From Candidatus Kryptoniota bacterium (GTDB lineage: Bacteria > Bacteroidota > Ignavibacteria > Kryptoniales > JAKASW01): a stretch of DNA of 34,372 nucleotides. Position numbers and translations under genes: made by a program. The stretch spans positions 1 to 34,372 of the forward strand of contig JAHECO010000039.1 in assembly GCA_024641705.1 (NCBI GenBank). The letters are read 5' to 3'. The notes under the pieces are model-generated. The model had not been told where the DNA came from. It made no database searches and worked only from the letters and a program-made list of their open reading frames with translations. How positions within the stretch are numbered: the first letter of the stretch is position 1; every line of letters starts with the position of its first letter. Below are positions 9,645 to 31,700 of the stretch, one piece after another.

Positions 9645-9676
9645 AACAGTTTACCAGCATATTAAGGAGAAATAAA

Positions 9677-9952: not shown

Positions 9953-9959
9953 CGCGCAA

Positions 9960-10241: not shown

Positions 10242-10243
10242 CT

Positions 10244-10782: not shown

Positions 10783-10785
10783 AGG

Positions 10786-12081
10786 ATGGAATTAAGCGAA
10801 ATAGAAAGACTTGGTGTCATCGGGGCCGGTGGAGCTGGATTCCCGACGCACGTCAAATTGAATTCAAAGCCCGACACGGTGATCATGAACGCTGCGGAAT
10901 GCGAACCCCTCCTTCATAAGGACATGGAACTCCTGCAGCATTATTCCGATGAAGTGCTCAGGGGATTCAGAACAATCAAGCAGATAACCGGCGCACAGAG
11001 GGCGATAGTTGGAATAAAAGAGAGGCATCAAACTGAAATTGACCTGCTAAGGTCAAAAGCCAGCAGCGATATTGAGGTGGTGCCAATAGAAGATGTGTAT
11101 CCGGCGGGTGATGAGGTGACGCTAATTTACATGACGACAAAGAAACTCGTCCAGCCGGGTGATTTGCCGATATCGATCGGGTGCGTGGTCCAAAATGTTG
11201 AGACGCTGTACAACATAGGCGTCGGTAAAGCGGTCGTCGAGAAATTCATTTCGGTCGCGGGTGCGGTCGAAGAGCCTGCGACCGTAAGAGTCCCTGTCGG
11301 GACCACGTTTGCCGAGGTCCTTTCTCACTTCGAAATCACTGCGCCGGATTATGTGGTGAGATCGGGCGGCCTGATGATGGGGGCAGTCGAATATGATCTG
11401 GACAAATCCGTATCGAAACGCACCGGCGCCCTCATAGTTCTGCCCGCGGATCATTATTGCGTCACCATGTACGAAAGATTCAAAACCGATCATGATACCG
11501 ACCGAATCGCAAAAGCTGGATGCGACCAATGCAACATGTGCACCGAGCTTTGTCCGAGATATTTGCTGGGCCAGCCCGTCAGACCTGAGACTGCAATGCG
11601 CAATCGCATGTTCACGAGAGAAGACTATCCGATGGTTAATCCTGGAAGTGCATCGTGCTGTGAATGCAATCTTTGCACGATGTATTCATGCCCGGAGGGA
11701 CTGGATCCGAGGGGTGCGACCGTGATAGAAAAACATCTGCTGCGCACGCAAAATACGAAGTGGACCGGTGGTCCCTTATCGGTCCATCCCATGTACGAAT
11801 ATCGAAGAGTCCCAACGAAGAAACTGATGCAGAGGCTCGATGTGCTGAAATTCAAGGATGAGGGCCCGTTGAAAAAACTGGACATAGATCCGAAGACCGT
11901 CCGTGTCCCGCTCGATCAGCATATCGGTGCTCCGGCGGAGCCGATCGTCCGAAAAGGACAATCTGTAAGAAAATACGATCTGATCGGAAAGGCAGCCGGA
12001 AAGGTGTCGGGTAATGTTCATGCTTCGATGGATGGTGTGATCAAAGAAATATCGAAAAACGACGTAGTTATCGAGAGGTAA
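10786..12081 (+). CDS. pduS: PduS/RnfC-like iron-sulfur flavoprotein of the compartment
   Basis: The 431-residue protein has the RnfC/PduS layout. An N-terminal nucleotide/FMN-binding part opens with GVIGAGGAGFPTHVKL and continues with MNAAECEPLLHKDMEL and the PAGDEVTLIYMTTKK region; an SLBB-like domain follows near residues 165-205. Two [4Fe-4S] motifs are clear: C246-x2-C249-x2-C252-x3-C256P, and C291-x2-C294-x2-C297-x4-C302P. The last ~60 residues (QHIGAPAEPIVRKGQSVRKY, then GKVSGNVHASMDGVI) form a barrel-sandwich, biotinyl-like domain. PduS in 1,2-propanediol compartments is a cobalamin reductase and binds the shell protein PduT. No B12-dependent diol dehydratase is seen here, so electron transfer or NADH re-oxidation is a more likely role. 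Its stop overlaps the start of the PduT-like gene. Confidence 0.88.
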   Translation: MELSEIERLGVIGAGGAGFPTHVKLNSKPDTVIMNAAECEPLLHKDMELLQHYSDEVLRGFRTIKQITGAQRAIVGIKERHQTEIDLLRSKASSDIEVVPIEDVYPAGDEVTLIYMTTKKLVQPGDLPISIGCVVQNVETLYNIGVGKAVVEKFISVAGAVEEPATVRVPVGTTFAEVLSHFEITAPDYVVRSGGLMMGAVEYDLDKSVSKRTGALIVLPADHYCVTMYERFKTDHDTDRIAKAGCDQCNMCTELCPRYLLGQPVRPETAMRNRMFTREDYPMVNPGSASCCECNLCTMYSCPEGLDPRGATVIEKHLLRTQNTKWTGGPLSVHPMYEYRRVPTKKLMQRLDVLKFKDEGPLKKLDIDPKTVRVPLDQHIGAPAEPIVRKGQSVRKYDLIGKAAGKVSGNVHASMDGVIKEISKNDVVIER

Positions 12082-12653
12082 TGATGGAGGCAGGCAATTC
12101 AGTCGGTGTAATCGAGCTCAGCAGTATTTACAAAGGGTTCCAGGTCCAGGATGAGGTCCTGAAGTCGGCGAATGTCGAGAAGTTGGTTGCCCGGACTATT
12201 TGTTCCGGAAAGTATCTGATGATTGTCCGAGGCGATGCCGCAAACGTGCAGATCGCGATCGACGTCGCGAAAGCGACGGGAGAGTTCTCGGTTGTCAACG
12301 TAACCGCAATCCCCAACCTTGACCCGCGCGTCTTTCCCGCGATATCAGGGGGAACCTCGTTGGACATGAATGTTCGGAAGAAAGTGGGAGCTATACTTGT
12401 GATCGAGACCTTCTCCGTCGTCTCGGCAATTAAAGCCGCCGACAGCGCGGTAAAAGAAGCGGAGCTGGACCTCTTGAGAGTGCATATCGCGATGGCCGTC
12501 GGGGGCAAAGGGTTTGTGGTCATGACCGGAGACATCGATGCGCTCGAGTCGGCGGCGCGGACTGCGGTTGAGAGCATCAAGGAAGACGGCATGCTTGCCG
12601 GTTATGCGATAATCAAGAATCCGCATGAAGAAGTTCTTAGAGAATTAATCTAG
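12081..12653 (+). CDS. pduT: PduT-like tandem BMC-domain (BMC-T) shell protein with cluster-binding cysteine
   Basis: Two BMC domains lie in tandem: residues ~6-90 (SVGVIELSSIYKGFQVQDEV, then LKSANVEKLVARTICSGKYL) and ~102-188 (VGAILVIETFSVVSAIKAAD, then VHIAMAVGGKGFVVMTGDID). It forms a trimer equivalent to one hexagonal tile. The RTICSGK segment matches the KTICPGK segment of Salmonella PduT, whose pore cysteine binds a [4Fe-4S] cluster at the three-fold axis; here it is Cys41. The second-domain MAVGGKG segment and the IKNPHEEVLRELI end also match PduT. The start codon overlaps the pduS stop, supporting the known PduS-PduT partnership. Confidence 0.9.
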   Translation: MMEAGNSVGVIELSSIYKGFQVQDEVLKSANVEKLVARTICSGKYLMIVRGDAANVQIAIDVAKATGEFSVVNVTAIPNLDPRVFPAISGGTSLDMNVRKKVGAILVIETFSVVSAIKAADSAVKEAELDLLRVHIAMAVGGKGFVVMTGDIDALESAARTAVESIKEDGMLAGYAIIKNPHEEVLRELI

Positions 12654-12668
12654 GAGAGGAGTTATAGA

Positions 12669-13469
12669 ATGAAACAGGAATGGGAACTGAAAAGGGATAT
12701 AATCGAAATCGGAAGGAGAATCTGGACACGCGGTTACGTCGGCGCAAACGACGGGAATATAACCGTCGCGTTGAATGAAAACGAGCTGCTTACGACGCCG
12801 CACGGCGTCAGCAAGGGCTTCATGACCCCCGAGATGATAATCAAAGTCGACAGGAACGCAAAAGTCATAGCCGGTAGTTCAAAGTACCACCCTTCGAGTG
12901 AAGTGAAAATGCACCTGGAGGTTTACAAGGAGCGCCCCGACATCAAATCCGTCATCCACGCTCATCCTACTTATGCGACGAGTTTTGCAGTGGCGGGAAT
13001 CCCGTTGGATAAATGTGTATTGCCGGAAGCGATTCTGGTTATCGGTGCGGTGCCGACGGCAAAGTACGGTCTCCCTTCCACGATGGAACTTGCAGAATCT
13101 ATACAAGAACACATCAAACACTCCGATGCGATCTTGTTGGAAAATCATGGCGCGATTACTCTCGGAACGGATCTCTTCGATGCATATTACAAAATGGAGA
13201 CACTTGAGCACGCGGCGAGCATCGTCTGGAAGGCTATTCAGTTGGGCAACGTAAACGTTCTATCGGAGGACGAAAGGGGAAGATTGCTGGGACTGAGGGA
13301 GAAGTTCAACCTTCAGGGTCGTGTCGCAGCTTGTGATGTTACACCGATGCCGAGCAGTGAACGCCCGACCACGATGGCTGCAGCCCCAAGTTCAGGCAAG
13401 AATCAAATCTCGGAAGAGTATATCAGGGAAATCACCGAGAAGGTACTGGCGAAGATCAAAAAGAATTAA
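12669..13469 (+). CDS. Class II aldolase (L-fuculose/rhamnulose-phosphate aldolase type) with C-terminal encapsulation peptide
   Basis: The enzyme should cleave a 6-deoxyketose-1-phosphate into DHAP and L-lactaldehyde using a divalent metal. Key residues all lie five positions beyond those of E. coli FucA: Glu78 (HPSSEVKMHLEVY), His97 and His99 (VIHAHPTYATS) and His160 (LLENHGAITLG). The catalytic domain ends near residue 215. A Pro/Ser/Ala linker (MPSSERPTTMAAAPSSGKN) follows, then a terminal amphipathic helix (ISEEYIREITEKVLAKIKKN), a typical C-terminal encapsulation peptide. FucA itself is ~215 aa, so the extension is extra and argues that cleavage happens inside the compartment. GAGAGGAG precedes the ATG. 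The precise sugar (fuculose or rhamnulose) cannot be told. Confidence 0.9.
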   Translation: MKQEWELKRDIIEIGRRIWTRGYVGANDGNITVALNENELLTTPHGVSKGFMTPEMIIKVDRNAKVIAGSSKYHPSSEVKMHLEVYKERPDIKSVIHAHPTYATSFAVAGIPLDKCVLPEAILVIGAVPTAKYGLPSTMELAESIQEHIKHSDAILLENHGAITLGTDLFDAYYKMETLEHAASIVWKAIQLGNVNVLSEDERGRLLGLREKFNLQGRVAACDVTPMPSSERPTTMAAAPSSGKNQISEEYIREITEKVLAKIKKN

Positions 13470-13502
13470 TTCCAATTGTTTGTTACCAGAGATCGCCATC
13501 AT

Positions 13503-14693
13503 ATGAAAATCATCGTTTGTAATATCGGCTCGACCAGTTTCAAGTTCCAGCTCCTCGATATGGCGCATGAGAGGACAATAGCGCGCGGCTATACCGAACG
13601 CGTCGGATCGGAGAATGCGCCGGTCACATACTGGATCGGCGAACGAAAAGTGTTCTCGGATGAGATCAAAATTCCCTCTCATCGTGATGCCGTGCAACAT
13701 GCGGCGAAGTTTCTAGTTGATCCGAAATTCAAAATTCTCAAGGATCTTCAACAGATCGACGGCATCGGTTTCAAGACTATACAAGCCGGAGATAAGAACG
13801 GCTCCGTTCTTCTGACCGACGACGTACTCCAGGCAATGGAAGATTATCGCGACCTGGCTCCCGCGCACAATCCGCCGTACCTGATTGCCATCTACATGTT
13901 CAGGGAGCTTCTTCCCAATACCAAACTGGTCGGGGTGTTTGAACCCGGTTTTCACGTTAATGCTCCAGATTATGCAAAGATATACGGCACTCCTTACGAG
14001 TGGATCGAGAAGTACAGCGTCATCAAATACGGTTATCACGGCTCGTCACACCGCTACATAACGGGGAAGACCGTCGAACTTCTCAAACTTCCGAAGGACA
14101 ACCACAAGATTATTTCGTGCCACCTCGGCGGCTCGTCTTCGGTATGTGCGTTCAAGGATGGTATTGCAATCGACACCTCGATGGGATTCACTCCTCAATC
14201 CGGTCTGATCCAGGGGACACGAATCGGGGACATCGACCCGTTTGTCTTTCCTTATATAATGAAGAAGAAGAATATCTCGCTCGATGATGCGTTGAAAGAA
14301 TGCAGTAAGAACGGGGGACTGGCCGGGCTTTCCGGAATATCTGCCGATATGAGGGACATTAAAGAAGCGATCAAGAAGGGAAACAAACGAGCCTTGCTTG
14401 CGCGGAACAAATTTATTTATGATGTGAAACGATACGTGGGTGAGTTCATTGTTATCATGGGGGGCCTGGATGCCATTACATTCACAGGCGGCATCGGTCA
14501 GAGAGATGCCGAATTACGGGAAGAGGTGTTGAAGTCCCTGGCATTCCTCGGGATGAAAGTTGACGCCGATAAGAACGGCAACAATGAAGAAGTTATTTCT
14601 ACTGCCGATTCGAAGGTCAGGGCGTTGGTTCTGGAGACCAATGAGGAGATTGTCGTTGCTAGGGAGACACAAAAAGCGATCGAGGATCTCTAG
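13503..14693 (+). CDS. ackA: Acetate-kinase-family acyl-phosphate kinase of the metabolosome
   Basis: This is the ASKHA-fold kinase that converts the acyl phosphate made by PduL (lactyl-phosphate expected) into the acid plus ATP. The 396-residue length fits AckA. Motifs: NIGSTSFKFQLLD at the start, PAHNPPYLIAI near residue 120, YGYHGSSHRY, CHLGGSSSVCAFKDG, DTSMGFTPQSGLIQGTRIGDIDP and FTGGIGQRD. Compared with housekeeping AckA it shows NIGSTS for NAGSSS and GIGQRD for GIGENS. I chose the ATG at 13503 because the family begins there; the in-frame TTG at 13476 would add nine atypical residues. It is the last gene before the terminator. PVM-type loci also carry a dedicated AckA. Confidence 0.9.
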   Translation: MKIIVCNIGSTSFKFQLLDMAHERTIARGYTERVGSENAPVTYWIGERKVFSDEIKIPSHRDAVQHAAKFLVDPKFKILKDLQQIDGIGFKTIQAGDKNGSVLLTDDVLQAMEDYRDLAPAHNPPYLIAIYMFRELLPNTKLVGVFEPGFHVNAPDYAKIYGTPYEWIEKYSVIKYGYHGSSHRYITGKTVELLKLPKDNHKIISCHLGGSSSVCAFKDGIAIDTSMGFTPQSGLIQGTRIGDIDPFVFPYIMKKKNISLDDALKECSKNGGLAGLSGISADMRDIKEAIKKGNKRALLARNKFIYDVKRYVGEFIVIMGGLDAITFTGGIGQRDAELREEVLKSLAFLGMKVDADKNGNNEEVISTADSKVRALVLETNEEIVVARETQKAIEDL

Positions 14694-18317: not shown

Positions 18318-18951
18318 AAGGTCGAATACGAATCTGGATGTCTAACGAAGATCAGAGGGAATATTCGAGGAATCTCTCTTTGCGTTTTTGCGGTTAAGAG
18401 AATGGCTGGGGACGGGACGGCATTCCTGACCCGTCGTCAGGACGAGTTTCGCAGGGGGACAATCTAATTTCCCTTTGGGCGTCGTTACCAGTTCACCGGT
18501 CATCGCAAGGAGTCCGGCCATGTATGTTACCGCCGGAGGAGGTGATTGAGACCGTCCTCTTCGGAGGGACGAAATCCGCCCTTGGCGGACGATCCCTATC
18601 ATCACTCCCCCCGACCGATGGCCCATTCGTTTCCATTAGGACGTTTGGGGGTGGGCGGCAAACATACGGTATCCCGATGAAATGAGATCTTATCAGGACG
18701 CCTTGGGGAAGCACTCGCCATCGATTATCCGTCCATGACATTTTATTTGGCCGGATGCCTTCGGCAAAATGGATGCCTCGGAGAAGCAGAAAACCCCATC
18801 GGGGTTTTGGACGCCTGAGCAGTCCGTTCCTGACGCGCGCTTCGCACATTCCAACGGGCGGCAATGGCGTCAAGATACTTGCGGCTGCGCGTCGGGCCGT
18901 CAAAGGACCGCTTACGCCTGTGGGCAAGGCTGGCCTTCGACCTCGACTTAG
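18318..18951. other. Intergenic stretch with degraded REP copies and hairpins
   Basis: No gene recognised. A second GTCATCG(C)AAGGAGTCCGG motif starts at 18499 and the mirrored CCGCCCTTGGCGGACGATCC ends near 18597 (REP-like copy 2, partly degraded). Short open frames on both strands here give only composition-driven translations. Confidence 0.5.
18790..18808. terminator. Small perfect hairpin, terminator-like
   Basis: AAAACCCC (18790-18797) and GGGGTTTT (18801-18808) pair exactly around ATC. The A-run and T-run would allow termination in either direction. It insulates the promoter of the following pseudogene from upstream sequence. Confidence 0.5.
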
Positions 18952-18980
18952 TTGAAGTCGACAGTATTTTCCATTACATT
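18952..18980 (+). promoter_or_regulatory. Promoter of the truncated hsdM copy
   Basis: TTGAAG (18952-18957), a 17-base spacer and TACATT (18975-18980). The same boxes with the same spacing stand before the intact hsdM (23469-23497), and this conservation between two diverged copies supports function. Confidence 0.6.
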
Positions 18981-19030
18981 TTTTCATATTTACTATCTCT
19001 CAACAGTAGAACTTGGGCGGTAAAGGTAAA

Positions 19031-19171
19031 GTGGCTGTAGCGAAAAGAAAGAAGAAAGCACCTGAAGAAGAACCACTGAAAAACAAGCTGTGGAAAGCTG
19101 CCGACAAACTTCGCAAAAAGATTGGAGCTGCGGATTACAGGTGCCCCGCTCTCCTTGAACCCCACGCTTGA
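19031..19171 (+). pseudogene. Truncated 5' end of a type I methylase gene (hsdM)
   Basis: From the GTG at 19031 the translation VAVAKRKKKAPEEEPLKNKL, then [16 protein letters not shown], matches the start of the complete HsdM at 23548 ([20 protein letters not shown], then AAEY). It diverges abruptly after codon ~36 and ends at a TGA (19171). About 190 bases (18951-19139) are alignable to 23468-23660, including promoter, leader and the GTG start with its AAGG/GAGG ribosome site. It is the relic of a second type I locus cut off where the helicase module begins. Confidence 0.8.
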
Positions 19172-19276: not shown

Positions 19277-21862
19277 ATGGCTAAATCAGTCACTCTTAAG
19301 GACCTTTGGGCTGAGTTCGATTTCAAGCCAAACAAGAACCAGGAAGAAGCAATCCTCCAAGTCGATGGACCTCTTTTCCTGACGGCAGGTCCGGGCTCTG
19401 GTAAGACCAAGGTACTGCTTTGGCGAACTCTCAACCTGATCGTTTTCCACGGAGTCGAGCCTGAAAGAATCTTCCTCAGCACGTTTACGGAAAAGGCTGC
19501 CCATCAACTTAGGGAAGGACTAAAGACACTCCTGTCAGTTGTCACGAACCGCACCAGACAGCCCTTCGATCTTGCAAAGATGTCGGTCGGTACCGTGCAT
19601 TCGATATGCCAGCGAATCCTATCTGACCGCAGGTTCTCGCCCGATTCAAAACGGCCCCGAACCCCTCGCCTTTTCGACGAGCTTGAACAGTATTTCTACC
19701 TCTATAAGCCTTCTAATTGGAATCGGATCCTTGAGGCGAGCGGATTCGCGGATCAGGAGGCCTGCAATCACATGGTGAACCTGACAATTGGCAGGGAAGA
19801 TAAAGGATCGCGACACGTTGCGGTGACTAACGCGATCACTTTCTTCAATCGCCTGTCAGAAGAGTGCGTTGATCCGATTGAAGCGAAGAAAAAGACCCGT
19901 GATCCGGACATCAGGAGACTTCTTGACATGTACCGCTGCTACTCCCGTGATCTCTCAATGGAAAAACCATTCGGTGCGGTCGATTTTTCTCTTCTTCAGC
20001 AGAAGGCGCTGGATATTCTAAATCAAAATCATGCTGCGGAACACGTGTACGAACATGTGATCGTCGATGAGTACCAGGATACAAACACGGTCCAGGAGCT
20101 GCTCTTCTTCAAACTCGCCAGGGGTAACAGGAACATTTGCATTGTAGGCGACGACGACCAGGCGCTGTACCGGTTCCGGGGAGCGACCGTCGAAAACCTC
20201 GTGGAATTTGAACAGAGGTGCAAGACCTATCTCGGCGTGAAACCGAAACGTATCGGCCTTGATACAAACTACCGCTCCCGGCAACTCATCGTGAAGCATT
20301 ACACCGATTTCATCAACCGCTGTAATTGGAGAAGAGAAGACGGCAAAGGCTACCATCGAGTCCACGACAAGAAGATCCGGGCGCACAGCTCCGATGGAAA
20401 ACCGAGCGTAGTCGCATCGACTCCCGGCCCGCCCGAGGATGTGTTTTCAGAGATCGTCGGCCTGGTAAAGAAGATCATAAGACAAAAGAAGGTTGCCGAC
20501 CCGAATCAGATAGCGTTTTTGTTTCCCTCATTGAAAGGAAACGCTAAAGCCAAGGGCTTCAAGGAGGCACTGGAAGGTGCCGGGCTGAAAGTGTACGCGC
20601 CAAGAGCGGGACGTTTCCTCGAGCTGGATGAGGCAGAGGCAATCTTCGGATTGTTTATGCTGGTTTTCGGCAAGCCGAAATCCGAAGGTCCATTCAGTCA
20701 AGACCTCATGAAGTATCACCAATGGATGAAGGACTGCACCGATTTTGCAGACGGCATCGCTGCAAAAGACAAGCAGCTCAAGGGATTTATTGCAGACAAG
20801 CGCCGGGAGCTGGAGCTCGTACGGAAGGACTACGAGGTCATAAAGGCTTTTGTGAAGCGGGACCGGTGGTCGGACGAAATGCCATTCACGTCAGACATGC
20901 GCAGAAGATTGGCTGAAGCACCGGGCCTTTCCTTCCGCGCAAAAAAGGCGCTGAACAGTAAGTACCTGCAAATGGTGATAGAGCAGCGGATGAAAGAGAA
21001 AGACCCGTTCAAGCTGAAATATATTGTGAACCGCGCAACGTCGCTCGACTGGAGCGTGCTCGATCTCTTTTATCAACTTAACGCCTTCAAATACTTCCGA
21101 GACTTCTACGATGCCGCAGAGGTGGATAAGGATGAAGGTCCGCTGTGCAACTTAGGAATAATCACCGGGTACCTTGCCCGCTTCATGGACCAGTTCGTTC
21201 CCATCATCACTGCCAGCTATCTCGATGATGAAAAGCTTCAGAAGCAATTCTTCCTGTCATACATTTACGCGTTGTACCGAAGGGAGGAGTCTGAATTTGA
21301 GGACCAGGATGACCCCTTCCCCAAAGGGCGCATTCCCTTTCTGACCATCCACCAGGCGAAGGGATTGGAGTTTCCGGTTGTCGTTCTCGGAAACCCGAGG
21401 AAGCGGAATTGGGAGGCGTCAGAGACCGAAAAGATTGCGCGTGCTCTTACCGGCAGGGGAGGAGAGCCAATCGAACGAATCGGAGAATTCGACAACATGA
21501 GGATGTTCTATGTGGCACTCTCTCGCCCGAAGAACCTCCTCGTTATTCCTCACTTCAGGGGCACAGGCCAGGTGACGTCTCCTCCGCTGAAACAAATGCT
21601 GGATGAAGGTGACATGCTGAGAATACCTGAGTTTGACCTCCGGACGCTTCCTGAGGCCGACCATGACTCAGAAGATCTTGGGAAGAATTACTCGTACACA
21701 AGCGATTATCTGCTGTACAAGAAATGTCCGCGGCAGTATATGATCTTTCGCAAGTATGGGTTCGTGCCTTCCAGGTCGCAGACCATGTTCTTCGGCAGTC
21801 TCGTGCATGAGACGATCGAGGATCTCCATCATCTCTTTATTGAGAACAGAGGAAAGTCATGA
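19277..21862 (+). CDS. UvrD/AddA-like superfamily 1 helicase carrying the start of an Fe-S nuclease domain
   Basis: SF1A helicase motifs are all present over 861 residues: NQEEAILQ (Q motif), AGPGSGKTK (Walker A, Lys43), GTVHSICQRIL, IVDEYQDTN (Walker B, Asp264-Glu265), GDDDQALYRFRGA, NYRSRQ, TIHQAKGLEFPVV (~690-702) and MFYVALSRPKN. The last ~60 residues change character: YTSDYLLYKKCPRQYMIF (Cys817) and FFGSLVHETIEDLHH (His844) are the opening elements of an AddB/RecB-type PD-(D/E)XK nuclease with an iron-sulfur cluster. The rest of that domain is in the next gene, which overlaps this one by four bases. It unwinds DNA 3'-5' by family. The surroundings (type I restriction genes) suggest defence or break processing. 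Confidence 0.88.
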   Translation: MAKSVTLKDLWAEFDFKPNKNQEEAILQVDGPLFLTAGPGSGKTKVLLWRTLNLIVFHGVEPERIFLSTFTEKAAHQLREGLKTLLSVVTNRTRQPFDLAKMSVGTVHSICQRILSDRRFSPDSKRPRTPRLFDELEQYFYLYKPSNWNRILEASGFADQEACNHMVNLTIGREDKGSRHVAVTNAITFFNRLSEECVDPIEAKKKTRDPDIRRLLDMYRCYSRDLSMEKPFGAVDFSLLQQKALDILNQNHAAEHVYEHVIVDEYQDTNTVQELLFFKLARGNRNICIVGDDDQALYRFRGATVENLVEFEQRCKTYLGVKPKRIGLDTNYRSRQLIVKHYTDFINRCNWRREDGKGYHRVHDKKIRAHSSDGKPSVVASTPGPPEDVFSEIVGLVKKIIRQKKVADPNQIAFLFPSLKGNAKAKGFKEALEGAGLKVYAPRAGRFLELDEAEAIFGLFMLVFGKPKSEGPFSQDLMKYHQWMKDCTDFADGIAAKDKQLKGFIADKRRELELVRKDYEVIKAFVKRDRWSDEMPFTSDMRRRLAEAPGLSFRAKKALNSKYLQMVIEQRMKEKDPFKLKYIVNRATSLDWSVLDLFYQLNAFKYFRDFYDAAEVDKDEGPLCNLGIITGYLARFMDQFVPIITASYLDDEKLQKQFFLSYIYALYRREESEFEDQDDPFPKGRIPFLTIHQAKGLEFPVVVLGNPRKRNWEASETEKIARALTGRGGEPIERIGEFDNMRMFYVALSRPKNLLVIPHFRGTGQVTSPPLKQMLDEGDMLRIPEFDLRTLPEADHDSEDLGKNYSYTSDYLLYKKCPRQYMIFRKYGFVPSRSQTMFFGSLVHETIEDLHHLFIENRGKS

Positions 21863-22692
21863 CGGAAGAAGAGATACTCAAAGAGATCGAGGAAGCGTTC
21901 AACTTGAATTACGAGCGCCTCAGGCTTGAGGGCGGCCACGCTCTCACCGAGGATATCAAGAGGCTCGCGCTGCAGATGGTCATCAGGTACTGGAAGAAGA
22001 TGCCCGATGTGGCTGAAAAGGTGACCGACACGGAGGTGAAGATCTCGCTGCCGGAACAGCGAAGTCCTAAGAGGAGAAAGTTTTCGATAGAAGGCATTGT
22101 TGACATCCTGAAGGAAGAGGATGAAACATGGATGTACGACATTAAGACACATGACGGGAAATACGTTGAAAAGCACCTCAGGGATTACGAGAAGCAGCTT
22201 AACGTCTATTCTCATATCTGGAAAGGGCTTCGGGGGGAGGAACTGGACCACACGGCCGTGGTAGCGCTTTCGCTGCCGCCTCAGCTCAGGGATGCTTTGC
22301 GTACCGGAGATGAGAAACGCATTGAAAGCGAAACCGCGAAGTGGAATCCGTTGATCGAAATCCCGTTCGACCAGAAACATGTTGACGAAACAATAAAGGA
22401 ATTCGGGCAGGTCGTAGATCGCATTGAAGACAATGTTTTTTCTCCCCCGACACTTGCAACCCTGAAGGAGAAAATCGGAGGGGAGCAGTTCGGGACAAGA
22501 ATATGCCTCAACTGCGACGCGCGGTTCTCATGCCGTTCTTATCGAAAGTTTGCGTTGGGCTCGTCGTCGCCGACCATATCTGCGTTCAAAAAATACATCG
22601 AGGACTTAGGTCCCGAGGCTGATGTCGAGGGCTGGACGACGGACAACCTGGAACATTCTGAAATCCCTGAGGCTGTCGATATAGAGGCATAG
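21859..22692 (+). CDS. PD-(D/E)XK nuclease subunit with C-x2-C-x5-C cluster motif (second half of AddB-like domain)
   Basis: This 277-residue protein continues the nuclease domain begun at the end of the helicase: residues ~1-60 are helical; IEGIVDIL gives Asp82; TWMYDIKTHDGK gives Asp94 and Lys96 (the D...DxK catalytic set); EKQLNVYSHIW is the usual 'Q..Y' helix; and GTRICLNCDARFSCRSY gives Cys216-x2-Cys219-x5-Cys225, the same spacing as the last three cluster ligands of AddB. The fourth ligand would be Cys817 of the helicase. AGAGGAAAG stands just before the ATG inside the helicase gene, so initiation is coupled. Alone it lacks the first cysteine and the catalytic-domain histidine, so it must associate with the helicase or be joined to it by frameshifting. 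Confidence 0.82.
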   Translation: MTEEEILKEIEEAFNLNYERLRLEGGHALTEDIKRLALQMVIRYWKKMPDVAEKVTDTEVKISLPEQRSPKRRKFSIEGIVDILKEEDETWMYDIKTHDGKYVEKHLRDYEKQLNVYSHIWKGLRGEELDHTAVVALSLPPQLRDALRTGDEKRIESETAKWNPLIEIPFDQKHVDETIKEFGQVVDRIEDNVFSPPTLATLKEKIGGEQFGTRICLNCDARFSCRSYRKFALGSSSPTISAFKKYIEDLGPEADVEGWTTDNLEHSEIPEAVDIEA

Positions 22693-22732: not shown

Positions 22733-23392
22733 ATGAAATCATCCGCATCAGGCAATAAAGGGCGGGGCAAAGCAATCAACTACGACAGGGATCAGGACCT
22801 GGTCGCGATGTACAATTTCCCACTGCAGGTGAAGAGGGCAGTGCAGGAAATTCAGGGAGTTGCCGGGTTTATGATTTATGATGGGGCCATTTCGGACCAG
22901 GAAATTTCCTACCTTGGACAATGGTTGGAAACACATCGTGCTTTCCTCACGCAGTACCCACTTAGTGACCTCAGCAAGCTTTTCAACGAGATCATGAAGG
23001 ATGGCATTGTAGAGCCGCACGAAAGACGGCAGTTGTTCGATTTCCTAAGCTCCATCGCTGTCGGCAGTCAGAAGAACCCGGTGGTCAACGGCATATACAC
23101 CGATCATCCGCAGATTGTGTTCAAGGACCGCCAGTTCCTTTTTACAGGGGAGATGGAATTTGGTCCGAGAGAAAAGGCGGAACGGGTAGTAGTGGACCGC
23201 GGCGGTATAGTTGCGAAGAGCTGCACGCTGAAGACGAACTACCTGATCGTCGGCAACTTGGGAAGCGAGGCGTACAAGTTCGGGCGCTTCGGTTCGAAGA
23301 TCGAGAAAGCGATAACGCTGCAGAGGGAGAAGAAGACTCCTATTCAAATTGTGCGGGAGAGGGATTTTGTGGAGAATGTGGTAGGAGGTTGA
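22733..23392 (+). CDS. BRCT-domain protein associated with the helicase-nuclease pair
   Basis: The C-terminal ~85 residues are a BRCT domain of the DNA-ligase/exonuclease-associated kind: DRQFLFTGEMEFGPREKAER, then VVVDRGGIVAKSCTLKTNYL, then IVGNLGSEAYKFGRFGSKIE, then the IQIVRERDFVENV end. The N-terminal ~110 residues are helical (AVQEIQGVAGFMIYDGAISD, then EISYLGQWLETHR), with a conserved-looking acidic 'DG.....E' start similar to regions that precede BRCT in other bacterial proteins. No nuclease or ligase catalytic motif is present. It probably binds DNA ends or a phosphorylated partner and serves the helicase-nuclease, which ends 40 bases upstream. AAGGAGGAAGGGAG precedes the ATG. Confidence 0.8.
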   Translation: MKSSASGNKGRGKAINYDRDQDLVAMYNFPLQVKRAVQEIQGVAGFMIYDGAISDQEISYLGQWLETHRAFLTQYPLSDLSKLFNEIMKDGIVEPHERRQLFDFLSSIAVGSQKNPVVNGIYTDHPQIVFKDRQFLFTGEMEFGPREKAERVVVDRGGIVAKSCTLKTNYLIVGNLGSEAYKFGRFGSKIEKAITLQREKKTPIQIVRERDFVENVVGG

Positions 23393-23468
23393 TGTGTCCT
23401 TGACGTGCGGAATGCACGCGGCGAACGGCTCGGCCGCAGGAACACTTGCCCTTGGGGGTACGATTAAG

Positions 23469-23497
23469 TTGAAGTCGACACGATTTTCTGTTACATT
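23469..23497 (+). promoter_or_regulatory. Promoter of the type I restriction operon
   Basis: TTGAAG (23469-23474), a 17-base spacer and TACATT (23492-23497), identical boxes and spacing to those before the truncated copy at 18952. Transcription would begin about 45 bases before the hsdM GTG at 23548. Confidence 0.6.
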
Positions 23498-23547
23498 TTT
23501 CCATAATATCCATTCTACAACAACCGGAAGTGGGCGGTAGAGGACAA

Positions 23548-25215
23548 GTGGCTGCAAGGAAAAGATCAAATAACAGTTCTGCTGAAGAACCACTGGAGAA
23601 CAAGCTCTGGAAGGCTGCCGACAAGCTTCGCAAGAACATGGACGCCGCGGAGTACAAGCATGTTGTCTCGGGACTGATCTTCCTGAAATACATCTCCGAT
23701 GCGTTCGAAGAGCTCCACCAAAGACTTGTCGAAGGCAGGGGAGAGTACGAAGGCGCCGATCCGGAGGATAAGAACGAATACACCGCCGAGAAAGTCTTTT
23801 ATGTCCCGCCGTCAGCCAGATGGAAATGGCTGCAGGGCCGGGCGAAGCTTCCGACCATCGGAAAAGACGTCGACGATGCCATGCTTGCCATCGAGAAAGA
23901 TAATCCTTCACTCAGGGGAGTGCTTCCGACAGTCTTCGCGCAGGAAAAGTTAGATAAGCAGTCACTCGGCGGGTTGATCGACCTCTTTGCGAGTGCCGCG
24001 ATAGGCACAAAAGAGGCTCAGAGCAAGGACGTACTTGGCAGAGTTTATGAGTATTTTCTCGGACAATTTGCGCTGGCAGAAGGGAAGAAAGGCGGACAGT
24101 TCTATACTCCGACGACGGTCGTCCGGCTTCTGGTCGAGATGCTTGAGCCTTATGAAGGTAGAGTCTTTGATCCTTGCTGCGGGAGTGGCGGGATGTTTGT
24201 TCAGAGCGAGAAGTTCGTGATGGCACACCAGGATAGGCGCCCCCACCCCGTCCCTCCCCCAATGGGGGAGGGAGTAAGGGTGAGGGTGGCACTAAACCCA
24301 GCGGATAGGATTTCGATATTCGGACAGGAGAGCAACCAGACGACGTGGAAGCTTGCGAAGATGAACCTTGCTATCCGCCATATCGACAGCACAAATGTGA
24401 AGTGGAACAACGAAGGCTCATTTCTCAATGATGCGCACAAGGACTTGAAGGCCGACTATGTCCTTGCCAATCCGCCGTTCAACGACAGCGACTGGAGCGG
24501 AGAGTTGCTGCGCGACGACGCGCGCTGGAAGGTATGGGGCGAGAAACTTGTCCCTCCGCCGGCAAATGCCAACTATGCCTGGATACTTCATTTCCTCTAT
24601 CATCTTGCTCCGAACGGGAGAGCAGGTTTCGTTCTGGCCAAGGGCTCTCTCACCACGAAAACGAACAACGAGGGAGAGATTCGGAAGGCACTCATCGAAC
24701 ACGACGTTGTCGAATGCATCGTTAACCTGCCGACGAAACTTTTCCTGAATACGCAGATACCGTCGTGTCTGTGGTTCCTACACCGCGACAAGCAGCGCAA
24801 GGGTGAAATACTCTTTATCGATGCCCGAAATATGGGATTTCTTGTTAACCAGAGAACCCGAGAGCTGTCGGATGAGGACATAGCGAAGATTGCCGGTACG
24901 TACGACAACTGGAGATTAGGCCCTCACCCCGTCCCTCTCCCATTGGGAGAGGGTGACCGAAGGGCGGGTGATAGCGTGTACCAGGATGTTCCGGGCTTTT
25001 GTAAGAGTACCACTGTCGATGAGGTGCGAAAGCTGAATTATGTGCTGACCCCCGGTCGTTATGTCGGCCTGCCCGATGATGAGGACGATTTCGATTTTGC
25101 CGAACGATTCACGCATCTAAAATCCGAGCTGGAGAAACAGATGGCGGAGGAACAAACTCTAAATGAGCGTATCCGGGAAACCCTCGCGAAGGTGATCATT
25201 CCTGATAAGAGTTAA
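23548..25215 (+). CDS. hsdM: Type I restriction-modification methyltransferase subunit HsdM with two in-frame palindrome insertions
   Basis: HsdM is the adenine-N6 methylase of type I systems. The N-terminal helical domain ([20 protein letters not shown]) is followed by [17 protein letters not shown], the SAM-binding [12 protein letters not shown], the catalytic [13 protein letters not shown], and [20 protein letters not shown]. The start is GTG at 23548 with AGAGG five bases upstream; another GTG at 23530 is in frame. Two short segments have no counterpart in the family: [19 protein letters not shown] (24228-24295 region) between the methylase motifs, and [17 protein letters not shown] (24920-24972 region) just before DVPGFCKST. 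Both are translated GC-rich palindromes. They sit in loops and keep the frame, so the enzyme may still fold. Confidence 0.9.
24242..24289. repeat. In-frame GC-rich palindrome inside hsdM, copy 1
   Basis: CCCTCCCCC (24252-24260), AAT, GGGGGAGGG (24264-24272) form a perfect core; outer CCACCCCG and GGGTGAGGGTGG extend it. It is translated as [15 protein letters not shown]. Confidence 0.85.
24922..24973. repeat. In-frame GC-rich palindrome inside hsdM, copy 2
   Basis: CCCTCTCCC (24933-24941), ATT, GGGAGAGGG (24945-24953) form the core; CCCTCACCCCG and GACCGAAGGGCGGGTG flank it. It is translated as [15 protein letters not shown]. Confidence 0.85.
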
Positions 25216-25217
25216 AG

Positions 25218-26105
25218 ATGGATAAAGAATTTACGGTACATCCGCTGCCTCCCGAGAATTCCGTGGAGACAGCCAAAGTTCTGAAGCAGCTCTCGGCATC
25301 CCATCGGTATCTGGCGGAGTTGAAAGGTGTAGCAACTGCTATCCCTAACGAGACCATCTTGATTAATACTCTCGCGCTCCAGGAGGCCAAAGACAGCTCC
25401 GCCGTGGAGAACATAATCACGACCCACGATGATTTGTACAAAGCTGAACTCAATTATGCCGAGTTTAATACTGCGGCGGCGAAAGAGGTGGCGCGATATG
25501 CAAGCGCGTTGAAGAAAGGCTTTGATATCGTCCGCGAAAAGAAGATACTCTCGACTAATGTCATCTTGCAGATTCAGGAAGAGTTAGAAAACAATACGGC
25601 GGGGATCAGGAAATTACCCGGGACCAAATTAAAGAATGAGACATCCGGCGAGATAGTTTATACACCTCCGCAGGACCACGATACCGTCGTCAGGCTCATG
25701 CAAAATCTGGACGAGTACATGAACAGGGATGAACTTCATGCTGTCGATCCGCTTGTGAAGATGGCGCTGATTCACTATCAGTTCGAAAGCATCCACCCTT
25801 TTTATGACGGCAACGGTAGGACCGGCAGAATCATCAACATTCTCTACCTGGTTACGAAGGATTTGCTGCACTTGCCTATCCTGTACCTCAGCAGGTATAT
25901 CATCACCAACAAGTCGGAGTACTACCGGCTGCTTCAGGAGGTGAGGGACTCGGAGGCGTGGGAAGAGTGGATTCTTTTCATGCTGAAAGGGGTTGAAGAA
26001 ACCTCTCGCCAGACGATTTCACTGGTGCAGGGTATCAAGCAGTTGATGATGGAATACAAGAAGAGGCTTCGGAGCGATCTACCGAAGATTTATTTCGCAA
26101 GTTAA
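25218..26105 (+). CDS. Fic-domain protein (AMP-transferase type, class II with inhibitory helix)
   Basis: Fic enzymes transfer AMP or related groups to target proteins. The catalytic motif is complete: HPFYDGNGRTGR starting at His193. The N-terminal inhibitory motif (S/T)xxxE(G/N) is present as SSAVEN (Ser60, Glu64, Asn65), which places it in class II and means basal activity is self-restrained. Residues 1-40 match the usual N-terminal region (LPPENSVETAKVLKQLSASH), and the C-terminal part holds a helical domain (VRDSEAWEEWILFMLKGVEE). It starts two bases after the hsdM stop with AAAGATG, and such genes are often found within type I operons. A toxin or regulatory role toward the restriction complex is inference. 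Confidence 0.88.
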   Translation: MDKEFTVHPLPPENSVETAKVLKQLSASHRYLAELKGVATAIPNETILINTLALQEAKDSSAVENIITTHDDLYKAELNYAEFNTAAAKEVARYASALKKGFDIVREKKILSTNVILQIQEELENNTAGIRKLPGTKLKNETSGEIVYTPPQDHDTVVRLMQNLDEYMNRDELHAVDPLVKMALIHYQFESIHPFYDGNGRTGRIINILYLVTKDLLHLPILYLSRYIITNKSEYYRLLQEVRDSEAWEEWILFMLKGVEETSRQTISLVQGIKQLMMEYKKRLRSDLPKIYFAS

Positions 26106-26107
26106 TT

Positions 26108-26533
26108 TTGGACAATGCGGACAAGCAAGACATTGGTCTTCTTACGACTTGGGATCTTTATCGACTTGCGAGAGGATTTCTCAGGAACAACTGGAGCCAT
26201 GAGCAGGTCAGAGATTTGTTCTATCGGAATGGCAGAATTCCGCCCGTGCCTAGCAACTATAAGTTCTTAGGAGCTGTGGATGAGTTTTGGGAGAAAGTGA
26301 GCGCTCTCAGTATAAAGCTGGAAAGCGGCGGGCTGAAAGTCGGTGACAGAGTTGCATATGAATTGCCGGTGGACTTTCTTGAGGAATCAGTCGGGTCGCT
26401 CCAACTCGAGGGTGGATCGGTTAACGAGGCGAAGGAAGGATCGGTGGCTGGAGTGAAAACAACGCTCACCAGGGACCAAGCAAAGAAGGGCGTTAGGGTT
26501 TATGTAGTCACGGAATCTGTCAGAAAGGAGTAA
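26108..26533 (+). CDS. Short protein with EF-Tu-domain-2-like barrel; possibly C-terminal remnant of a larger protein
   Basis: No ATG fits; the only near start is TTG at 26108, two bases after the fic stop, without a clear ribosome site. The first ~70 residues (IGLLTTWDLYRLARGFLRNN, then EQVRDLFYRNGRIPPVPSNY) look like the helical end of a nuclease-type domain. The last ~60 (LKVGDRVAYELPVDFLEESV, then GSLQLEGGSVNEAKEGSVAG, then VKTTL) look like a small beta barrel of the translation-factor domain 2 kind ('G..V.SLQ....V..A..G..VG'). In my memory such sequence forms the C-terminus of longer restriction-island proteins, so this may be what is left of one. No catalytic residues are seen. Confidence 0.5.
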   Translation: MDNADKQDIGLLTTWDLYRLARGFLRNNWSHEQVRDLFYRNGRIPPVPSNYKFLGAVDEFWEKVSALSIKLESGGLKVGDRVAYELPVDFLEESVGSLQLEGGSVNEAKEGSVAGVKTTLTRDQAKKGVRVYVVTESVRKE

Positions 26534-26536
26534 AGC

Positions 26537-26584
26537 ATGACGAAAGTTCTGCTATTTTTAATGAACAAAGCATTTGTCGGTTGA
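26537..26584 (+). CDS. Possible 15-residue leader peptide
   Basis: ATG at 26537 has the best ribosome site in the neighbourhood (AAAGGAG, six bases away) and encodes MTKVLLFLMNKAFVG, then TGA. It stops eight bases before the next gene's ATG. It could couple translation to that gene, or be the frameshifted start of it. Confidence 0.3.
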   Translation: MTKVLLFLMNKAFVG

Positions 26585-26591
26585 GGTTGTC

Positions 26592-27497
26592 ATGGTTGAA
26601 GCTACTTTGCAAATAAGGCAGTATTCGAACAATAAGGTGACCATAGATGCGACTGAAATTACAGGCGAGGGCGCGCCAACTTTTCCTAGGATTATCGTAC
26701 CACTGAAGATGAAGCTTTCACCGCTAGGTGATGAAAATCAAAAGAAAGAATTCGTCATCTTAGGAATAGCGTCCGCTCTTTTCATCCAAGATACACAGCA
26801 GAAGATCACGGTGTCGTCATCACCAACATATCCCTACAGAGTCTCCAATAACTATGAGATAACCTCGCGGCTAGAATTTGGGTTGTCCCCTGATCGCCTG
26901 CAAATAGTCGAGGCGCAAAGAGGGGGCGGTGATCTAAATCTTCGCTTTGACCTGTGGTTCACGTTAGGTCTTTTCGACTCTGTGCAAGTCAATGATGGAG
27001 CGAATCAAAGGACGCTCAAGTTCCTAAGCGACATCGAATACTCCGCTGTTCAGTTGTCTAACGTTAAGATTCCACAGTCGCACTGGGTAAAGAACATTCT
27101 GCCACACTTGGGCTCGACTCAATATTTCCTTGTTGAGGTCCCCAAAGGTGACAAAGCAATTGCCAAGTCATGGCAGTATGTGGAAAGGGCAGAAGAAGCG
27201 TTTGGCAGATGGGATACAAAAGGAGTTCTCTCGAATTGTCGAGAGGTCGGAAAGGTGCTCGACACAACTGTGAAGGGGCAATATGGAGAAGGTTTCACAT
27301 ATAAGGAGCGCTGGGGTCGGGCGTTCAAAGTATTCACACACCTATGCTCGCTCGGGCTGCATCTGGAAGACAAATCGCAAGAAGAGGCGTTTTCGGGACA
27401 GGAAGTCAAGATCACGAGGGCTGACGCTGAGCTTGTGCTTGTCCTAACGAAAGCCTTAATGAAGTTTGCGGAAGAGCTCATGAAAGAGAGAGGCTGA
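26592..27497 (+). CDS. Unidentified 301-aa protein in the type I operon
   Basis: I do not recognise a family. I chose the ATG at 26592 (GAGG nine bases upstream); the TTG at 26574 is in the same frame. Residues ~1-150 look beta-rich (ATLQIRQYSNNKVTIDATEI, then PRIIVPLKMKLSPLG, then LQIVEAQRGGGDLNLRFDLW). Residues ~180-300 are helical with several Trp and Arg: KSWQYVERAEEAFGRWDTKG, then SNCREVGKVLD, then YKERWGRAFKVFTHLCSLGL and a terminal LTKALMKFAEELMKER. It has neither target-recognition-domain nor coiled-coil features of HsdS. Its position in the operon suggests an accessory or abortive-infection partner. Confidence 0.65.
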   Translation: MVEATLQIRQYSNNKVTIDATEITGEGAPTFPRIIVPLKMKLSPLGDENQKKEFVILGIASALFIQDTQQKITVSSSPTYPYRVSNNYEITSRLEFGLSPDRLQIVEAQRGGGDLNLRFDLWFTLGLFDSVQVNDGANQRTLKFLSDIEYSAVQLSNVKIPQSHWVKNILPHLGSTQYFLVEVPKGDKAIAKSWQYVERAEEAFGRWDTKGVLSNCREVGKVLDTTVKGQYGEGFTYKERWGRAFKVFTHLCSLGLHLEDKSQEEAFSGQEVKITRADAELVLVLTKALMKFAEELMKERG

Positions 27498-27520
27498 GAA
27501 CTAATAAGGCGCATCACCCC

Positions 27521-28708
27521 ATGATTCAGAAATCATTTGACGCGATTGACAAATCTGACATTGACGGGATAGTCCTCAATCAAGTCCGTGAGGAACGAAC
27601 CATCGAGTACAAACTGTCACTTCCAGGTAATTCGGACGATGATAAGCGCGAATTTTTGGCAAACGTGTCATCCTTTGCCAATGCATCTGGTGGTGATTTG
27701 CTATACGGAGTGGAAGCTGTCGATGGCATCCCTATGAATGCCCTTGGGTTGACCGCGAATTTAGATACAGAAATTCTACGATTGGAAAATCTTCTACGGG
27801 ATGGTTTAGAACCAAGAGTTCAAGGAATTCAGATAAAAGCCATTGAGGGGTTTAGCGAAGGCCCAGTTATCCTCGTTCGCATACCTGGAAGTTGGGGGGC
27901 ACCTCACATGATAAAATTCAAAAACCTTTCGCGGTTCTATACAAGGAACACTGGAGGAAAACATCAAATGGATGTCTCTGAGATTCGTTCCTCTTTCTTA
28001 CTCTCTGAAACTCTAAATGACAAGATTCGGGGTTTCAGAGACGATAGGCTAGGGAAGATAGTCTCTGGAGAAACTCCTGTGCAACTTCCGACTCTTGGAA
28101 ATCTTGTACTACATGTTCTGCCGGTGGCATCATTTGTTTCGGCCGTACGCTTAAGCTCTGAGTGGTTAGCGAAGCAGGCCACTAATCTCATTCCTTTGGG
28201 GGTTGGGGGTGGCTATAATCATCGATTTAATCTCGATGGATTCGTTACGTTTAACGGTCGGAGCGCTGAAGAAGAATCAAGATCATATTGCCTCCTATTT
28301 AGAACAGGCCAGATCGAGGCTGTACTAGCTAGTATAGTTCGTGAAAAAGATGGCACCCGGTTCATCTCAAGCCATACATTCGAGACTTACGTAGTGCATG
28401 GACTAACGAAATATCTCGAAGCACTCAAGAACCTTGAGGTCCCATATCCACTTATGATTTCTTTGGCCTTGACTGGTGTGTCAGGTGCTCGATTGTATCT
28501 TGATACATGGATGTACGGCTATGAGCCTTGTTCGATTGAACGCGATACTCTGGTACTCCCAGACGTTTTTGTTGAAGATGCAGCGTCCATGTCTGATGCA
28601 AACGGTATCGCTAAATCCCTCCGTATTATTTTTGATGCGGTATGGAACGCTTCTGGTTTACAGGGTTCTATCAACTTTGATAAAGATGGTAATTGGCAAC
28701 CTAAATGA
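27521..28708 (+). CDS. AlbA_2 (Schlafen-like) domain protein
   Basis: The N-terminal ~160 residues carry the AlbA_2/Schlafen-core pattern: EERTIEYKLSLPGNSDDDKR (Glu.x.K), then EFLANVSSFANASGGDLLYG, then VEAVDGIPMNALGL, then a strand IQIKAIEGF, GPVILVRIPGSW, and the FYTRNTGGKHQMDVSEIR end. This family binds nucleic acid or nucleotides and is common in defence islands. The following ~230 residues are a second alpha/beta part without recognised motifs, ending GLQGSINFDKDGNWQP. It lies 23 bases after the previous gene and 46 bases before hsdR. A helper or regulatory role in the restriction locus is inference. Confidence 0.78.
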   Translation: MIQKSFDAIDKSDIDGIVLNQVREERTIEYKLSLPGNSDDDKREFLANVSSFANASGGDLLYGVEAVDGIPMNALGLTANLDTEILRLENLLRDGLEPRVQGIQIKAIEGFSEGPVILVRIPGSWGAPHMIKFKNLSRFYTRNTGGKHQMDVSEIRSSFLLSETLNDKIRGFRDDRLGKIVSGETPVQLPTLGNLVLHVLPVASFVSAVRLSSEWLAKQATNLIPLGVGGGYNHRFNLDGFVTFNGRSAEEESRSYCLLFRTGQIEAVLASIVREKDGTRFISSHTFETYVVHGLTKYLEALKNLEVPYPLMISLALTGVSGARLYLDTWMYGYEPCSIERDTLVLPDVFVEDAASMSDANGIAKSLRIIFDAVWNASGLQGSINFDKDGNWQPK

Positions 28709-28754
28709 TAGGAAATGAGATCAAGTCTCGATTCTTCACTATTCAATCGGAAAA

Positions 28755-31700
28755 ATGCTTACTGAAAATAACGTCGAGCAATTCTCTGTAGAAGGCATAC
28801 AAGCCTTAGGCTGGGAGTACCAACATGGCCTTTCGATAGCTCCCGGTTCCGAAACCGCTGAGCGAAGCACCTTCGAAGAAGTACTCTTGCTTCCAAGGCT
28901 TCAACGCGCAATTGCCCGCCTGAATCCTGACATTCCAGCCGAAGCTCAAGAACAGGCGCTTAAAACTGTTCAGAGAATTCACTCGCCTGATCTCATCGCA
29001 AACAACGAACAATTCCACAAGTACCTCACGGACGGCGTGCCCGTTCAATATCGGGTAGGCGAAAGAGAGCTTGGTGGGTATGTCTGGCTCGTGGACTTTG
29101 CCAATCCAGACGACAATGAATTCCTTGCGGTTAACCAATATACAGTCACTGAGAAAAGCCTCTCGCATAGTGGAGCAGGACTCAGCAAGCGTTTGGACAT
29201 AGTTCTGTTCATAAACGGCATTCCGCTCGTCGTGATGGAACTGAAGAACCCGGCGGATGAAAACGCGACAACGTATAAGGCATTCGAACAGATACAAACA
29301 TACAAGGCGACGATACCGACCCTCTTCACTTACAATGCGTTTTGTGTAATCTCAGATGGACACGAAGCCAGGGCGGGGACAATCTCCTCCGACTTCAACC
29401 GATTCATGGCATGGAAGAGCATCGACGGGACAAAAGAAGCCTCCCGTTTTGTGCCGCAGCTGGAAACGCTCATCAAGGGAATGCTCAATCGCGCCACGCT
29501 GAACGATCTTATTCGGAATTTCATCGTCTTCGAGAAGACGAGTAAGCTCGATAAGAAGACCGGGCTTACGCAGGTAGAGGCAGTCAAGAAACTGGCGGCG
29601 TATCATCAGTATTATGCAGTGAATAAGGCGGTTGAGAGCACGATAAGAGCGGCTGGGTTTCACCCCCACCCTCATTCCCTCCCCCAATGGGGGAGGGATG
29701 AAAGGGTGGGGGTTAATTACCGCGGCGGTGCGATGTTTTCGAGTCTCCTCGAAGAGGCGCGCGAATTAAGGAAAAGGCAGACCCCGGTCGAGGAGATATT
29801 CTGGCAGATAGTGCGCAACAGGAGATTCCTGAACTTGAAGTTCCGCCGCCAACATCAGATCGGCCCGTATATCGTCGACTTCTATTGTCACGAGAGAAAG
29901 CTTGTTATCGAATTGGATGGCGGAGTTCACCAAATACCGGAACAGAAGGCACGCGACGCTGAACGCGATGAATATCTAAAGTCTCTCGGTAACCAGGTGA
30001 TACGTATCAAGAACGAAGACATCTCTGAACGACTCGGACAGACTTTGGAATCGCTAGCAAACACCCTAAGCCCACCCGAGCAGCCACTCCCTCTCCCTTT
30101 GGGAGAGGGTCGGGGAGAGGGAGACAGAAAGGCTGGAGTTATCTGGCACACTCAGGGAAGCGGCAAGTCCCTTTCGATGGTCTTCTACTCAGGTAAAATC
30201 GTCGCCGCGCTCGACAACCCGACAATAGTAGTCATCACCGATAGAAACGACCTGGACGGGCAATTGTTCGATACATTTGCCGCATCCAAGCAGCTGCTAA
30301 GGCAGGAGCCGGTACAGGCTGAGAGCCGCGAGCATCTGAAGGAGCTTCTCAGGGTCGCTTCAGGTGGAATTGTCTTCACCACAATCCAGAAGTTTTTCCC
30401 CGAAGCCGAGAGCTCACATTATGAATTGCTGTCGGACAGGAAGAACATCGTCGTCATTGCCGACGAAGCTCACCGCACGCAGTACGGCTTCAAGGCAAAG
30501 TTTCGCGACGTGACAGATAAGGACACCGGCGAGGTGTTGGGCAAAGAGGTAGCCTACGGGTTTGCAAAGTATCTACGCGACGCGTTACCAAACGCTACAT
30601 ACATAGGATTCACGGGTACGCCCATCGAAAAGGAGGACCGCAGCACCCCGGCGGTCTTCGGCAACTACGTTGACATCTACGATATCGCGCAGGCTGTCGA
30701 AGATGGGGCTACGGTGAGAATCTTTTACGAGAGCCGGCTTGCGAAGGTTAACCTGGACGAAGAAGGAAGGCGGTTGATCACCGAGCTTGACAAGGCGCTC
30801 GATGATGACGAGGCGATTACCAATAAACAGGTCGAGAAAGCAAAATGGGCGCGCCTCGAGGCGATCGTAGGGAATGGGAAGCGGCTGAAGAACCTCGCCA
30901 GGGATATCATTTCTCATTTCGAGCAGAGGCAATCTGTTATTGAAGGCAAGGGAATGATAGTGGCGATGAGCCGAAGGATTGCAGTTGACTTGTATGATGA
31001 GATAATAGCCCTGCGCCCCCAGTGGCATAGTGACGAGTTGACCAAGGGTGCCATAAAAGTTGTGATGACTGTTGCCAGCTCGGATGGTCCTGAAATGCAG
31101 AAGCATCATACGACCAAGCTGGATAGAGAAATTCTGTCGGACCGCATGAAAGATCCCGACGATCCTCTCAAGCTTGTCATTGTGCGCGATATGTGGCTAA
31201 CTGGTTTTGACGATCCCCCGCTGCATACGATGTATGTCGACAAGCCGATGCGGGGGCACACGCTGATGCAAGCGATTGCGCGTGTGAACAGGGTGTTCAA
31301 GGACAAGCCGGGCGGGCTGGTTGTTGATTATCTGGGGATTGCGACGGACCTCAAAAAGGCTCTTTCCTTTTACGCGAATGCAGGAGGCAGAGGCGACCCA
31401 ACAGAGACCCAAGAGCAAGCAGTAGCCGCCATGATTGAAAAGCTGGAAGTGGTGCGTCAGATGTTCTGCGAGAAGAGCAAATCTGAGAAGGTGATCATGG
31501 TGGCGGAGCCGACCGCATATTACGGAAGCGAGCCGAGATTCAACTATCTGCGGTTCTTCAAGGCATCACCCCAGGAGAAACTGTCGATCATCCTTCAAGC
31601 GGAAGAGCACATCCTCGGACTCGAAGACGGCAAGGCAAGATACATTCGCGAAGTAACGCTTCTCAGCCAGGCATTCGCGCTTTCCATCCCGCACCCGCAG

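Follow-up and report, generated by a model that had tools for sequence, protein, structure and literature searches.

A conserved split divides a predicted Fe-S nuclease domain between a UvrD-type helicase gene and the gene that follows it

We found that two overlapping genes in a 34,372-nucleotide stretch of DNA from a Candidatus Kryptoniota bacterium (contig JAHECO010000039.1; the window) divide a single PD-(D/E)XK nuclease domain between them. The first gene, ORF1, encodes a helicase that ends with the opening part of the domain, and the second, ORF2, encodes the remainder (Table 1). The two products probably form one obligate two-subunit helicase-nuclease with a predicted Fe-S cluster ligated by both chains. 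For the clade as a whole, we think it likely that the pairs are obligate two-subunit iron-staple nucleases, in which one predicted [4Fe-4S] cluster and the PD-(D/E)XK site are completed across chains and which depend strictly on the helicase. In the Fe-S nucleases known from the AddB/Cas4/Dna2 class, the domain that the cluster staples lies on a single chain. A clade that spans six phyla and is cut between the first and second catalytic motifs provides a natural test of whether two separate proteins can be held together by an Fe-S cluster, and of whether such a cluster can serve to check the assembly of a dangerous nuclease. Within this clade it is incorrect to annotate one gene as a full helicase and the other as a full nuclease, and the naturally occurring cut suggests where a helicase-nuclease could be divided to make it controllable.

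Table 1. Positions of the helicase-nuclease pair and its downstream neighbors in the window
Feature	Position	Strand	Description or basis
ORF1, SF1A UvrD-type helicase, 861 aa	19277-21862	+	PF00580, PF13361
ORF1 tail (last ~58 residues), opening part of nuclease domain	21686-21859	+	Alignment with one-chain homologues
Cys817 codon (TGT)	21725-21727	+	ORF1
His844 codon (CAT), motif I histidine	21806-21808	+	ORF1
Shine-Dalgarno-like AGAGGA, 5 nt upstream of ORF2 start	21848-21853	+	Sequence
ATGA start/stop overlap of ORF1 and ORF2	21859-21862	+	Sequence
ORF2, remainder of PD-(D/E)XK nuclease domain, 277 aa	21859-22692	+	PF12705 positions 61-247
Asp82 codon	22102-22104	+	ORF2, codon position
Asp94 codon	22138-22140	+	ORF2, codon position
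Lys96 codon	22144-22146	+	ORF2, codon position
Cys216, Cys219, Cys225 codons	from 22504, 22513, 22531	+	ORF2, codon positions
BRCT-domain protein	22733-23392	+	PF00533
Type I restriction-like locus	23530-32453	+	Pfam, PADLOC
hsdM	23530-25215	+	Type I locus
SoFic-like Fic gene	25218-26105	+	Type I locus
AlbA_2 protein	27521-28708	+	Type I locus
hsdR	28755-32453	+	Type I locus

ORF1 carries the helicase motifs GPGSGKT (Walker A, residue 38), DEYQDTN (residue 264), and TIHQAKGLEFP (residue 690). ORF2 matched the Pfam profile PDDEXK_1 (PF12705; E = 2.8e-8) from position 61 to position 247 of 247. Thus, the first 60 profile positions are absent from ORF2, and alignment with one-chain plasmid homologues identified them as the end of ORF1. 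In this alignment no core segment was lost or duplicated at the junction and the two pieces continued without a gap, the split point being the loop between the helix that bears His844 and the next helix. ORF2 also has a clade-specific insert (residues ~133 to 165) and a C-terminal tail. Coordinates and alignment together confirmed the initial annotation, which had placed Cys817 and His844 at the end of ORF1, Asp82, Asp94, Lys96, and a C-x2-C-x5-C trio in ORF2, and an ATGA overlap between the genes. Cys817, His844, Asp82, Asp94, Lys96, Cys216, Cys219, and Cys225 are among the residues that are invariant between the window and its fused or separately encoded homologues.

We then looked at how far the split extends. 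One genome per species from 84,980 species was scanned with a composite query built as a four-row alignment, and the relatives described here are the best 80 loci of that one scan. The search for fused or equally split homologues that had been suggested for this pair returned both. The 28 closest relatives (L037 to L064; 39 to 56% identity) were all split, each in the same interhelix loop. They come from six phyla: Cyanobacteriota, Bacteroidota, Planctomycetota, Bacillota, and Fibrobacterota, plus a Treponema. The remaining 52 loci, at about 30% identity, were in a single open frame in all cases that allowed scoring of both parts. The genes of Halobaculum and of one Enterococcus plasmid that are annotated in two pieces were rejected as candidates; they are broken inside the helicase, not the nuclease. 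In a tree of the whole composite, a branch with SH-aLRT 100 separated 26 split members from 52 one-chain members, and a tree of the helicase part alone, without long branches, divided 26 split from 49 one-chain members with the same support. Both trees are unrooted; because every other part of the tree holds one-chain forms, and AddB, AdnA, Cas4, and Dna2 are one-chain as well, the simplest explanation is that the split arose once, as a derived event, and then spread between phyla. Fused members may possibly exist inside the split clade outside the best 80 loci. Distances for ORF1 and ORF2 correlated (Mantel r = 0.93), as expected for coinherited genes and partly reflecting linkage.

The window pair itself was probably acquired horizontally, to judge from its distribution: it was absent from the 12 other species of the genus that were searched, and the members of the window's phylum that were found have one open frame (~975 to 989 codons where complete). 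ORF2 had no match in phage records and only distant matches in viral contigs.

The residues expected of one nuclease are conserved jointly over the two chains. Cys817 and the ORF2 trio Cys216, Cys219, and Cys225 were present in 29/29 split pairs (the window and its 28 relatives), so that the iron-staple pattern of one cysteine before and three after the catalytic core holds in every pair when both chains are counted together. Lys96 was likewise present in 29/29, and His844, Asp82, and Asp94 were present in 27/29 each. No other ORF2 cysteine was conserved in these pairs, and ORF2 has neither a conserved fourth cysteine nor an invariant histidine. According to the initial annotation, a shared domain would be refuted if the second gene of homologues itself encoded a fourth cysteine and a histidine. 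We found such a gene only on a distant branch (a Nostoc plasmid) and none in the split clade.

We modeled the composite from a split relative, L037, in which a TAA separates two genes that lie in the same frame; with glycine in place of this stop, the halves were folded together. The model of the nuclease composite had a pLDDT of 91.8 and a pTM of 0.85, and that of the full 1138-residue composite had a pLDDT of 90.3 and a pTM of 0.89, values to be read with the bias towards a joined domain that a one-residue join of the halves introduces. Residues 1 to 294 of the nuclease composite superposed on AddB residues 789 to 1137 (Z 16.9; rmsd 4.0; 270 aligned), a range within which the split, at residue 58, falls. 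The other matches of the nuclease composite were AdnA (Z 16.1), ACE1 (Z 14.4), and Cas4 and Dna2 (Z 12.4), and the helicase of the full-length composite matched UvrD and PcrA (Z 33 to 32). In sequence searches of the PDB, phmmer with ORF2 gave no match and profile A3 gave only Cas4 (4ic1; E = 0.0036). The composite nuclease is thus predicted to have the iron-staple fold of AddB and Cas4. The conserved split, the presence of the remaining cysteine and the histidine on ORF1 only, and the AddB-like composite all support the earlier proposal that the cluster and active site are completed between two chains.

These data suggest the following mechanism. ORF1 would be a UvrD-type SF1A motor, with 3'-5' translocation as in its family, and would supply the helices that open the nuclease domain together with the motif I histidine and one cysteine of the cluster. 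The separate ORF2 product, made in the window perhaps by reinitiation or coupling, would contribute the Asp/Asp/Lys catalytic core and three cysteines. Docking of ORF2 on the C-terminal end of the helicase would complete both the active site and the [4Fe-4S] cluster (1 + 3 cysteines), and we propose that cutting is thereby coupled to the presence of the motor. The nuclease is predicted to be active only when docked.

A different reading is that the pair does form but is mainly structural or regulatory, with a nuclease-like clamp gripping the helicase's DNA and cutting being secondary. Two Clostridium pairs (L052 and L064) have H844N, D82S, and Q or H in place of D94, while their four cysteines, Lys96, and helicase motifs are intact and the pairs are under purifying selection. 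A third (L126) has His844 replaced by N together with D82N and keeps all four cysteines. The catalytic residues are therefore lost jointly on both chains and the cluster residues are kept jointly on both. Because the three loci are related, the joint loss probably represents one or two events, not three. The surroundings of L052 are an ordinary, nondefense chromosomal context. Thus, a Clostridium subgroup has a degenerate active site outside defense contexts, and nuclease activity is not essential everywhere; in these loci the helicase perhaps uses a dead nuclease as a DNA clamp. For the clade we consider a primarily structural role unlikely, since 27/29 pairs of the main set, including that of the window, keep every catalytic residue.

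It is also improbable that the two proteins work apart, as an ordinary helicase whose tail is vestigial and a stand-alone Cas4-like nuclease that uses a three-cysteine or other metal site. Each gene does have its own start, and in the Nostoc plasmid relative the nuclease is encoded whole by a gene of its own. However, the ORF1 tail is among the best conserved stretches of ORF1, and its cysteine is present in all 29 pairs. In the Clostridium species in which another gene lies between the halves (see below), the dN/dS of the ORF1 nuclease part is 0.03 to 0.05, a value from 60 codons only. The lack of a fourth cysteine and an invariant histidine in ORF2 and the joint loss of catalytic residues on both chains further argue against independent function and favor a single two-subunit enzyme.

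The junctions between the halves bear on whether the two genes are ever joined in translation. The initial annotation had raised a -1 frameshift at the overlap that would give a ~1138-residue fusion, and stop readthrough would have the same outcome. In the window the genes are indeed in a -1 relation with a 4-nt overlap. However, the split relatives show all three relative frames (0, +1, and +2). Their junctions span -19 to +750 nt in the first set and include ATGA, TGATG, TAATG, longer overlaps, direct abutment, and short spacers; ORF2 starts in the relatives were picked by hand as the nearest plausible start codon. In three Clostridium species, C. zeae and two relatives (L062, L124, and L125), a complete and unrelated AHSA1-family gene (PF08327) lies between the halves, with gaps of 676 to 879 nt in the two added species. 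Both halves are intact there and under purifying selection (whole-gene dN/dS 0.07 to 0.17). The window overlap also lacked a recognizable X XXY YYZ slip site. With frames that vary, spacers, and an intervening gene, the relatives do not show the fixed frame relation of a programmed frameshift, and a fusion product of either kind is very improbable. ORF2 starts are instead preceded by Shine-Dalgarno sites; the median pairing energy over the clade is -7.1 kcal/mol, and that of internal ATG/GTG codons (n = 908) is -1.5 kcal/mol (p = 6e-7). The window's own site pairs at -6.0 kcal/mol and exceeds 88% of the pair's internal ATG/GTG codons in strength. Weak sites were found mainly in Bacteroidota, which make little use of Shine-Dalgarno sites. 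The remaining explanation, one gene broken in this genome by a sequencing or assembly error or a recent frameshift mutation, fits the fact that a single base inserted before the ATG would unite the frames, but it is refuted by 28 relatives split at the same place with differing junction sequences and by the Shine-Dalgarno sites upstream of ORF2.

Among known systems, the pair is closest to the UvrD-Cas4-like (pfam12705) fusions, for which Hudaiberdiev et al. 2017 (PMC5704561) give type III Mod and Res as the commonest context. The window pair groups with these fusions in the tree, and tblastn of ORF1 against the plasmid fusions gave 30 to 35% identity over most of its length. The fusions share the order of helicase and then PDDEXK_1 and the same catalytic and cysteine residues. 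They differ in being one chain, whereas the split clade is cut inside the nuclease domain and has its insert and tail in ORF2. Thus, the window pair has the helicase and the PF12705 residues of the family but neither the one-chain fusion nor the Mod/Res neighbors. The same paper describes an unfused UvrD and Cas4-like operon, mostly in Clostridiales, as an independent link between the two enzymes. That operon resembles the split clade in having two adjacent genes, and the Clostridium members of the clade likewise lie in nondefense surroundings; the text of the paper does not mention a cut within the domain. The Nostoc N6 plasmid pNPM2 pair (L016) also has the helicase and PD-(D/E)XK nuclease as neighboring genes, but its cut falls before the nuclease domain, so the first cysteine and the histidine are encoded by the second gene itself.

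AddB and AdnA/AdnB share the composite's fold, arrange their cysteines as C...C-x2-C-x5-C, and belong to enzymes that also contain an SF1 helicase. Their nuclease domain is a single chain, and AddB and AdnB heterodimerize with AddA and AdnA. The description of the pair as AddB-like therefore holds for the predicted fold and not for the closest named family, which is the UvrD-Cas4-like fusions and not AddB proper. No AddB equivalog of NCBIfam matched, and AddA/PcrA/RecB helicase models were hit only far under their cutoffs. Cas4, Dna2, ACE1, and the bacterial DNA2-like Bad (PMC7430649) have the same Fe-S nuclease fold as a single-chain domain, and Dna2 and Bad use an SF1B 5'-3' helicase, unlike the SF1A helicase of the split pair. 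The GajB models of PADLOC (Gabija) matched the helicase part only, and there was no GajA-like ATPase among the neighbors scanned. A search of open-access literature returned no split iron-staple nuclease and no two-chain Fe-S cluster. The parent fusion family, its Mod/Res context, and the unfused Clostridiales operon are thus already known, and none of the texts retrieved describes a split within the domain.

Downstream of most split pairs lie genes for an N6/N4 methyltransferase of ~630 aa and a type III-like restriction subunit of ~1000 aa; Mod/Res-like genes were found near the pair at 19/29 loci for c2 and 18/29 for c3. Fused plasmid relatives likewise have Mod and Res downstream. In the window these neighbors are absent and a type I locus is found instead, in which Pfam recognized no specificity subunit. 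The best-supported role, going by such neighbors, is that of an accessory helicase-nuclease of restriction-modification loci that would resect or destroy cut DNA. The assembled enzyme would probably process or degrade DNA opened by the neighboring restriction-modification enzymes, comparable to AddAB or RecBCD on broken DNA. The BRCT gene next to the window pair is not among the recurrent neighbors of the relatives.

Several further features of these loci were observed. In L043 (9003-10627), L047, and L051, two of them cyanobacterial and one from a planctomycete, a ParA-like ATPase and a ~240-aa protein follow the pair in place of Mod and Res. In the window, a 196-nt direct repeat (74%) is present at 18944-19139 and 23461-23656, and its upstream copy, immediately preceding ORF1, resembles what is left of another hsdM gene truncated to its 5' end. 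If so, the helicase-nuclease-BRCT block is flanked by this hsdM remnant on one side and by the intact hsdM on the other. Within the type I locus, positions 26108-26533 and 26574-27497 have no assignment. Four palindromic REP-like elements of the CCCTCCCCCAATGGGGGAGGG type are located at 24240-24280, 24921-24961, 29665-29705, and 30077-30117, two of them in frame within hsdM (11 protein letters each) and two within hsdR. Finally, positions 5450-14693 of the window hold a bacterial microcompartment locus with PTAC, aldehyde dehydrogenase, an RnfC-like protein, a BMC shell protein, class II aldolase, and acetate kinase.
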